A stretch of 64,000 nucleotides of DNA, from contig JAENYG010000013.1 of assembly GCA_016841875.1 (NCBI GenBank), forward strand, positions 1-64,000. The letters run 5' to 3'. Each line of letters starts with the position of its first letter. The stretch's first letter is position 1. The notes beneath the pieces are model-generated. The model made no database searches. It was given only the letters and a program-made list of their open reading frames with translations, and had not been told where the DNA came from. The position numbers and the translations under genes were made by a program. The DNA is from Syntrophomonas sp. Its GTDB lineage: Bacteria; Bacillota; Syntrophomonadia; Syntrophomonadales; Syntrophomonadaceae. Below are positions 15,948 through 53,177 of this stretch, piece after piece.

Positions 15948-15953
15948 ATAAAA

Positions 15954-16253
15954 AGGAACCCGAATGGTTCCTATCAGGTTGTCAACAAAGTCGATAAGAT
16001 ATCAGATCGATGACGGAAGCCCACAGGATTACAATTTGGGCTCACTGCGCTCGAAATTATAAAGAAATGAAGATCAAGGCATGAGAAAAACCAGCGATTG
16101 AGGCGTGCCTGAGTACGCTGATTGAGCGGGTTTTTGGGAAATAACAAGATATTCGTTTCCTTATCATTCGTGAGCCTTGCGTGAACTTTAGACTGTAATC
16201 CTGTAAAGGGCTTCTGTCATCGGTCTGAAAGGAACCCGAGGGGTTCCTTTTTT
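15954..16253 (+). repeat. Hairpin-bounded palindromic repeat, copy A
   Basis: A 254-bp element (15975-16228) sits between two nearly identical hairpins built on GGAACCC...GGGTTCC (15954-15972 and 16229-16249); only the right hairpin has a T run. The element begins CAGGTTGTC and ends CGGTCTGA. The outer arms TCAGATCGATGACGGAAG and CTTCTGTCATCGGTCTGA pair with a few mismatches. Both arms also carry a block with ACAGGATTACA / TGTAATCCTGT and GCTCAC / GTGAGC. It is the largest member of a family also seen at 24371, 26726 and 52920. It lies between convergent genes. Confidence 0.85.
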
Positions 16254-18625: not shown

Positions 18626-18650
18626 GGCCCGGGTTTACCCGGGCCTTTTC
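18626..18650 (+). terminator. Strong terminator
   Basis: The palindrome GGCCCGGGTTTACCCGGGCC (18626-18645) followed by TTTTC lies 32 bases past the stop at 18593 and before the MBL-fold gene. Confidence 0.85.
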
Positions 18651-24370: not shown

Positions 24371-24564
24371 AGCGGGGTTTTAAGACCCCGCTCAGACCGA
24401 TGACATAAGCGTATATCTGCGTTATTTTAGAAAGCCCACTCAAGCAACGTACTTAAGTACGACTCAATCAAGGGCTTTTTTCATGCCTTGATCTTCGCTT
24501 CCGTCATCGGTCTGCATTTTGTAAACCTTATCGACAACCTGAGCTGGGTTTTAAGACCCCGCTC
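24371..24564 (-). repeat. Hairpin-bounded palindromic repeat, copy B
   Basis: Here the element (24393 to about 24540, about 148 bp) is in the opposite orientation to copies A, C and D. The outer stem CAGACCGATGAC (24393-24404) / GTCATCGGTCTG (24503-24514) is perfect. The central CGTACTTAAGTACG palindrome is intact. The flanking hairpins are built on GCGGGG/CCCCGC with the loop TTTTAAGA (24371-24392; second about 24541-24564). This smallest copy lacks the movable block of about 50 bp found in A, C and D. A partial CAGGTTGTTGG follows the right hairpin. Confidence 0.8.
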
Positions 24565-24712
24565 AGGTTGTTGGGACCAGGAAATAAAAAACTAACATCC
24601 ATGGAAATGATATTCATATTTACAATCATTTTACTTGGTGAAAATACTAACTTAACTATTATGTGACATACTATCTAGGTATTAGACTCAATATCCAAGG
24701 AGTTTTTAGAAA

Positions 24713-26725: not shown

Positions 26726-27210
26726 AGTCCCCTTTAGAATAAAGGGGACTCAGGTTGTCGACAAAGTCGGCAAGATGCCAGGCCGATCACAGAAGCGAAG
26801 ATCAAGGCATGAGAAAAACCCTTACAGGACCACAGTTTATGCTCGCTGAGCTCGAAATAACAAAGAAGCCAGTGATTGAGGCGTACCTGAGTACGTTGAT
26901 TGAGCGGGTTTTTTAAAATAACGCAGATATTCGTTTTTGTCATCGGGCTGAGTCCCCTTTAAAATAAAGGGGACTCAGGTTGTCGACAAAGTCGGCAAGA
27001 TGCCAGGCCGATCACAGAAGCGAAGATCAAGGCATGAGAAAAACCCTTACAGGACCACAGTTTATGCTCGCTGAGCTCGAAATAACAAAGAAGCCAGTGA
27101 TTGAGGCGTACCTGAGTACGTTGATTGAGCGGGTTTTTTAAAATAACGCAGATATTCGTTTTTGTCATCGGGCTGAGTCCCCTTTAGAGTAAAGGGGACT
27201 TTTATTTTTA
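26726..27210 (+). repeat. Hairpin-bounded palindromic repeat, tandem copies C1 and C2
   Basis: The order is hairpin (26726-26750), element C1 (26751-26950), hairpin (26951-26975), element C2 (26976-27175), hairpin (27176-27200), then a T run. The period is 225 bp, and the two copies appear identical. The hairpins are built on AGTCCCCTTTA / TAAAGGGGACT and differ only in the loop. The element has TTGTCGACAA, a 5'-half block with ACAGG and GCTCG, the GTACNTGAGTAC core, and the terminal GTCATCGGGCTGA. Only the last hairpin has a T run, so it is the likely working terminator for ytxC. Confidence 0.9.
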
Positions 27211-32529: not shown

Positions 32530-32544
32530 GCGTATAAATTATTA

Positions 32545-32790
32545 ATGCGATGAACAGGACAAGTAAGCTGTAATTTATCTCTTCAGGGAGGCTGTATCAG
32601 CGACTGAAAGTACAGCCAGGGAGAATGCAGGGGAATTCACCTGGGAGCAGTGGACTGAAATAGCAGTAGGTCTTACCGGTTGCCGCCGTTAGAGGTAATA
32701 AGTGAATCAGGTGGATTATACTTGATTAATTTGGGTGGTACCGCGGAACATAGCTTTCGTCCCTTGAGGGGACAAAAGCCTTTTTTATTT
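32545..32790 (+). promoter_or_regulatory. T-box leader for pheST (Phe specifier)
   Basis: The T-box motif GGGTGGTACCGCGG is at 32733-32746. Upstream sequence has a Stem I-like region with AAGTAA (32561-32566), and a specifier TTC in GGAATTCACC (32636-32638), which would pair with tRNA-Phe. The terminator is GCTTTCGTCCC / GGGGACAAAAGC followed by CTTTTTT at 32752-32787. Uncharged tRNA-Phe should favour the antiterminator and turn on pheST. Confidence 0.88.
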
Positions 32791-52919: not shown

Positions 52920-53177
52920 AAACCCGTACCTACAGGTACGGGTTTCAGCTTGTCGACAAAGTCGGCAAGCTGCCAGACCGATGACGGAAGTGAAGATCAA
53001 GGCATAAGAAAAGTCCACGATTGAGGCGTACTTGAGTACGTTGATTGAGTGGGTTTTTTGAAATAACGCAGAGATTCGTTTCTTAATTATTCGTGAGCCT
53101 TGTGCGAACACACATTGTAATCCTGGAAAGGGCTTTTGTCATTGGTCTGACCCGTACATGCAGGTACGGGTTTTTTT
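52920..53177 (+). repeat. Hairpin-bounded palindromic repeat, copy D
   Basis: A 205-bp element (52946-53150) is flanked by AACCCGTACC...GGTACGGGTT (52920-52945) and CCCGTACATGCAGGTACGGG (53151-53170), with T run only after the right one. It has TTGTCGACAAAGTCGGCAAG, CAGACCGATGACGGAAG, the GTACTTGAGTAC core and terminal GTCATTGGTCTGA. The ACAGG-type block is in the right arm only (GTGAGCC ... TGTAATCCTGG). It lies 50 bp after marR, so the right hairpin serves as terminator. Confidence 0.88.

Follow-up and report, generated by a model that had tools for sequence, protein, structure and literature searches.

Short palindromic elements of Syntrophomonas with IS1182-type ends duplicate the whole hairpin that they target

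The closest described systems are IS1272 and TnSha1 of staphylococci, DDE elements of the IS1182 family that have no sequence preference and target hairpins, of which many are terminators (PMC4923244, PMC5678879). In the IS1272 data the hairpin is lost and no target duplication is made (PMC4923244, PMC5678879), and duplication of a whole stem-loop is drawn only as a possible pathway b (Fig 13 in PMC5678879). A review, as it is cited in PMC5678879, mentions palindrome targeting by some IS1182 members, there without detailed data. The elements described here share with IS1272 and TnSha1 the IS1182 family and the targeting of hairpins and terminators; they differ in that they duplicate the hairpin, which IS1272 replaces or deletes.

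The original prediction, made from the letters of this DNA, knew of no described family with such a design. This holds in part: IS1182 elements had already been reported to target palindromes and terminators, while IS1272 deletes its hairpin (PMC4923244, PMC5678879). In the literature that we searched (subscription journals and ISfinder apart), neither duplication of a whole terminator by IS1182 elements nor these families of miniature transposons (MITEs) are described. Thus, structure-directed targeting by IS1182 is known and whole-hairpin duplication is new within that literature.

The target duplications of DDE transposases usually vary little in length, which is dictated by how far apart the two active sites are. 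Long variable repeats are reportedly listed for the IS1182 family in ISfinder. Our reading, to which we give a probability of about 85%, is that the elements are transposase-less miniature transposons of an IS1182 subgroup with CAGNNTGNNGACAAA-type ends, which a DDE transposase supplied in trans inserts into terminator hairpins, with a duplication as long as the hairpin.

Elements in the window and in Syntrophomonas genomes

The window, that is the whole stretch of 64,000 nucleotides of Syntrophomonas sp. that we analysed, has one non-autonomous transposon repeat unit in five copies, spread over four loci. The unit starts with CAGSTTGTCGACAAAGTCGGCAAG, ends with GTCATCGGYCTG and is usually exactly 150 bp long, a canonical length found in 24 of the 41 intact Syntrophomonas insertions. 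Its left end is a fixed hairpin, CAGSTTGTCGAC-AAA-GTCGGCAAGMTG, followed by an inner palindrome, CAGRCCGATGAC ... GTCATCGGYCTG, which has a terminator-like stem and then T's in its middle. Longer copies contain additional palindromic modules. The elements measure 147-392 bp, and no transposase gene lies inside. Three window units, folded together with their outer hairpins, exceed shuffled sequence in stability by a wide margin (z -7.6 to -9.7).

Locus 1, on the forward strand, is an anchored duplication: the left copy of the hairpin AAAGGAACCCGAATGGTTCCTAT, which has lost its T run (15952..15974), is followed by a 253-bp element (15975..16227) and by the right hairpin copy (16228..16250), after which the T run comes. 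Locus 2 is in reverse orientation relative to the other window loci, with one hairpin copy at the right end of the element (24371..24392, reverse strand), the 149-bp element itself (24393..24541, reverse strand) and the other copy at its left end (24542..24563, reverse strand). At locus 3, on the forward strand, three hairpin copies (26726..26750, 26951..26975 and 27176..27200, the third followed by a T run) alternate with two tandem elements of 200 bp each (26751..26950 and 26976..27175). Locus 4, also on the forward strand, consists of a left hairpin copy (52922..52945), a 204-bp element (52946..53149) and a right hairpin copy with a T run (53150..53173). After the outer hairpin of locus 2, positions 24564-24571 hold CAGGTTGT, a stub of another element end in the opposite direction. 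Elsewhere, at 32541-32767, the window has a T-box leader (RF00230, 128 bits).

The four palindromes of 148-254 bp, each inside two hairpins, that had been predicted are all present, with sizes that become 253, 149, 200+200 and 204 bp when the boundaries are placed at CAG...CTG. The count of four is right for the loci and too low for the elements, of which there are five, since locus 26726 is a tandem of the form hairpin-element-hairpin-element-hairpin. A T run after the last hairpin only, as predicted, is seen at three loci and fails at 24371, where ATTACG comes next on the element's strand.

Allowing up to 2 mismatches, we counted the core CAGACCGATGAC 10 times in the window, where 2.2 are expected; 0 of 100 shuffles gave as many. 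The full-genome search for this core that had been proposed with the original prediction returned 24 exact occurrences in the organism's own genome and 0 of the reversed pattern. At least about 40 loci of this genome have the element, and a similarity search gave at least 57 matches there and tens in two congeners (G001 and G002); all these counts are minima from draft genomes. Among 67 parsed Syntrophomonas copies, 26 are without a matching hairpin pair, and many are truncated on the left.

Seven long copies (L077, L082, L092, L103, L186, L193 and L217) keep the right end, which a hairpin mostly adjoins, but have neither the left end nor the left hairpin. Long copies such as L103, L096, L082 and L104 have palindromic modules nested within them (e.g. 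CCCCGGCACGGGGCAACTGATGTACCTTCATTTCATTGCGGTAC); these recur among several copies and have the appearance of a second family of repeats.

The hairpin as target-site duplication

A complete hairpin stands on either side of the unit, mostly without a gap. Both members of a pair agree at any one locus, and the pairs of different loci differ, which had been predicted for the window and is borne out at all four of its loci. We selected 67 insertions by a flank match score of at least 12 (median 22); their duplicated stretch measures 16-45 bp. At least 80% self-pairing about the own centre was found in 55 of these 67 duplications, as compared with 71 of 13,400 control windows of the same length. When left and right flanks were taken from different loci, a score of at least 12 was reached in only 18 of 4,422 pairs, contradicting the idea, named beforehand as one that would overturn the prediction, that the flanks are a fixed part of the element common to all loci. 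Since the duplications range over 16-45 bp, are mostly self-paired and have locus-specific flanks, the duplication follows the length of the hairpin.

Of 41 Syntrophomonas insertions, 30 have the 3' end of an ORF no more than 130 nt away. The 8 bases that follow the right hairpin copy include 4 T's on average. Both findings indicate that intrinsic terminators make up most of the targets.

Hairpins at the edges of intergenic palindromic repeats near gene ends also call to mind REP elements with RAYT (Y1) transposases, a lead contained in the original prediction, and a REP/RAYT or IS200/IS605-type element would have its hairpin ends processed by a Y1 transposase. The ends found here instead resemble those of an element with an IS1182-family DDE transposase. 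The outer hairpins are locus-specific host sequence, and a target duplication is made, against none in IS605-type elements and PATEs (PMC3119063). Subterminal hairpins of the element's own combined with an absent duplication, the arrangement of a REP/RAYT or IS200/IS605 derivative, were not what we found, and we consider such an origin hardly credible. REP elements are not known to make a hairpin-long target duplication. The PATEs of Haloquadratum and IS605-type elements are likewise short mobile repeats that have palindromes close to either end, but these palindromes are their own, and they have no inverted ends and make no target duplication (PMC3119063). We rejected an identity with PATEs on the grounds of their own palindromes and the lack of a target duplication (PMC3119063).

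We located orthologous loci in sister species with a chimeric protein built from the gene ends beside filled loci. Sites without the element typically have one hairpin, the point that a check proposed with the original prediction had asked about. At three empty sites the match is base-exact, each flank aligning as far as the element edge and the two sharing a single hairpin: window locus 52922 against L269 of a sister species (24-bp hairpin; right copy 53150..53173), L192 against L275 (23 bp), and L225 against a hairpin of the window itself (21 bp). In this last case L225 of G002 has a 264-bp element between two hairpin copies, and the orthologous empty site is a single terminator hairpin with its core at 18626..18645 on the forward strand of the window. 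L267, in a sister species, has a single copy of the hairpin of window locus 26726 (26726..26750); alignment reaches the element edge on the left, and on the right it begins 39 bases out. For the loci at 15952 and 24371 the comparison established no empty site, and some orthologues, rearranged or too diverged to align, were uninformative.

The matched self-paired flanks and the single hairpin at orthologous element-free sites together demonstrate that the hairpin is the target-site duplication of the element. A replacement of the hairpin as in IS1272 does not fit, for the hairpin is present twice at filled sites and once at empty ones. Of the two possibilities put forward originally, entry into a terminator with duplication of its stem is supported by the single-hairpin sites in sister species and by the intact single-hairpin sites that other plasmids have for autonomous relatives. 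There is no support for the other possibility, that the element itself includes and requires a hairpin at either edge, because the flanking hairpins vary from locus to locus and existed before the insertion. A composite module that carries or depends on both hairpins, with gene conversion keeping each pair alike, would explain why the two are almost identical at each intact locus and adjoin the element; we nevertheless regard it as very improbable, given that the hairpins are locus-specific and that sister species and Enterococcus plasmids have one hairpin and no element.

Tandem arrays of the form hairpin-element-hairpin-element-hairpin are present at window positions 26726-27200 and at L074, L086, L087, L105 and G002:C9, and may have arisen by unequal exchange or slippage between duplicated hairpins. 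They indicate that slippage or exchange does occur in the region, so an ordinary transposon might make a short fixed duplication beside terminators and the hairpin might be copied later by these same processes. This seems unlikely to us, as single insertions in many genera have exactly one hairpin per side and are bounded at the foot of the hairpin, and no class of insertions was seen that adjoin a lone hairpin and have a short duplication of fixed length.

In G000, a group II intron (RF02001, 143 bits; L281:1701-2351, C32) lies directly downstream of a terminator hairpin that is orthologous to the G002 locus L220, filled by a MITE. Two unrelated mobile elements are thus found at the same terminator in sister species.

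Group IIC introns, like our elements, insert at intrinsic terminators, and the elements could be thought to move as RNA by target-primed reverse transcription as such an intron does. The intron at L281, at the orthologous site of one filled terminator, would suit this, as would the long copies L077, L082, L092 and L103, where the missing left end and left hairpin may reflect either deletion or truncated insertion. Group IIC introns are, however, retroelements without target duplication, whereas the right hairpin copy here is a full duplication and the inverted ends are common to a DDE insertion sequence. Rfam models gave only the T-box and a tRNA over the window and no match to an intron or other RNA family over any element, that is, no catalytic intron fold. 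Group IIC introns are not known to make a full hairpin duplication, and we attach almost no weight to movement as RNA.

Autonomous relatives of the IS1182 family

We scanned for the left-end hairpin in the genomes of 84,980 species. It stands at the edge of other MITE families, of 153-168 bp in Candidatus Howiella, of 235 bp in two MAGs and of 222 bp in an Oscillospiraceae MAG, each located between duplicated locus-specific hairpins. In Anoxybacillus and Geobacillus, the same end marks the start of a roughly 1,550-bp insertion sequence. Its product of 493 aa, which is intact in Anoxybacillus sp. J5B_2022, belongs to the IS1182 family of transposases (NF033551, 475 bits against a cut-off of 270; also DDE_Tnp_1_6 and DUF772). 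The MITE ends agree with those of the Anoxybacillus element at 24 of 27 and 14 of 18 positions. Two full copies of the latter have exact duplications of AACACCCGATAGTGATCGGGTGTT and AAGCGATCTCCCTTGAGAGATCGCTT, hairpins of 24 and 26 bp, and one Geobacillus copy has two different hairpins at its edges, as expected from recombination between copies. The Syntrophomonas elements thus have the features of MITEs of this IS1182 subgroup: they are short, contain no transposase gene and have ends related to those of an element with an IS1182 transposase, and both duplicate the whole hairpin.

In the draft Syntrophomonas genomes we found no autonomous element with matching ends, and the unpaired element ends examined there belong to truncated copies with no gene. 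A search with NF033551 in the MITE-bearing Howiella, S2R_St_11, S3R_St_47 and Oscillospiraceae assemblies gave no IS1182 transposase. The IS1182 copies of the organism's own genome and its relatives have other ends, GAGACCACTG or CAGACTGTGTGA, and are located within GGGACGGTTC palindromes. Copies L137, L138, L141, L148, L136 and L151, with ends GAGACCACTGAAAAAGT or CAGACTGTGTGAAAA, lie inside GGGACGGTTC-type palindromes, and some such copies in the relatives look as if the loop had been replaced, like IS1272.

We then considered 21 further IS1182 copies, taken from plasmids and phages for their similarity to one transposase; 16 of these copies were scored together. Thirteen of the 16 present a whole-hairpin duplication of 18-35 bp, with ends CAGNNTGNNGACAAA or close to it and hairpins that are often preceded by A-rich and followed by T-rich sequence; for the other three the boundaries could not be set. 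Among the five copies outside the 16, four had no clear duplicated hairpin and one was a short match. The hosts of the 13 are Enterococcus, Cytobacillus, Sutcliffiella, Alkalihalophilus (ISBspe1), Rhizobium, Providencia, Acinetobacter and two Streptococcus phages. For two Enterococcus cases we predicted the empty site by joining the flanks with one hairpin copy, and both predicted sites exist uninterrupted in other plasmids (547/547 aligned at 99.8% and 545/545 at 99.1%).

In a transposase tree, in which one long row is placed unsurely, the duplicating copies and those with unset boundaries fall on one side of a branch (support 86/95) and IS1182 copies with other ends on the opposite side, the copies from Syntrophomonas relatives belonging to these other-end groups. 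IS1182 insertion sequences with CAGACTGNNGACAAA ends (such as ISBspe1 and the copy on plasmid 2 of Enterococcus faecium DO) share with the MITEs the end type, the transposase family and the duplication of a whole terminator hairpin; they differ in being autonomous, at about 1.5 kb, and most are without the 27-nt left-end hairpin of the MITEs. The literature searched does not describe their target mode.

Insertion model and its meaning

The hairpin is the target, it is duplicated as a whole, and the ends are those of an IS1182 subgroup. Building on these observations, we propose that a DDE transposase supplied in trans would recognise the element ends and insert the element into the hairpin of a Rho-independent terminator, with one strand joined at one hairpin foot and the second strand at the opposite foot. 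The entire stem-loop would then be copied when the gaps are filled, and the target duplication would therefore be the hairpin itself, varying with its length (16-45 bp). The upstream copy would lose the T run and the downstream copy would keep it, so that insertion probably preserves termination. Judged from the sequence, a gene with such an insertion probably still ends in a working terminator. We infer that the folded form, a cruciform or a single strand, is what is attacked; the strand chemistry, with a paired attack at the two feet of the extruded hairpin followed by repair, and the mobilisation in trans in Syntrophomonas belong to the same conjecture.

Because the duplication is a hairpin of 16-45 bp, the target appears to be held as a fold. 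We find it likely that this extends to a large IS1182 subgroup and its MITEs, whose DDE transposase would read DNA structure rather than sequence and act at hairpin feet, the fold and not the protein measuring the duplication, and for which terminators would be a safe landing site that is copied and not destroyed. A hypothetical branch of the IS1272 model thereby becomes an observed outcome in many genera, and provides a route by which an element can settle at gene ends with the terminator probably still working. For annotators, paired terminators next to short repeats can be scars of transposition.
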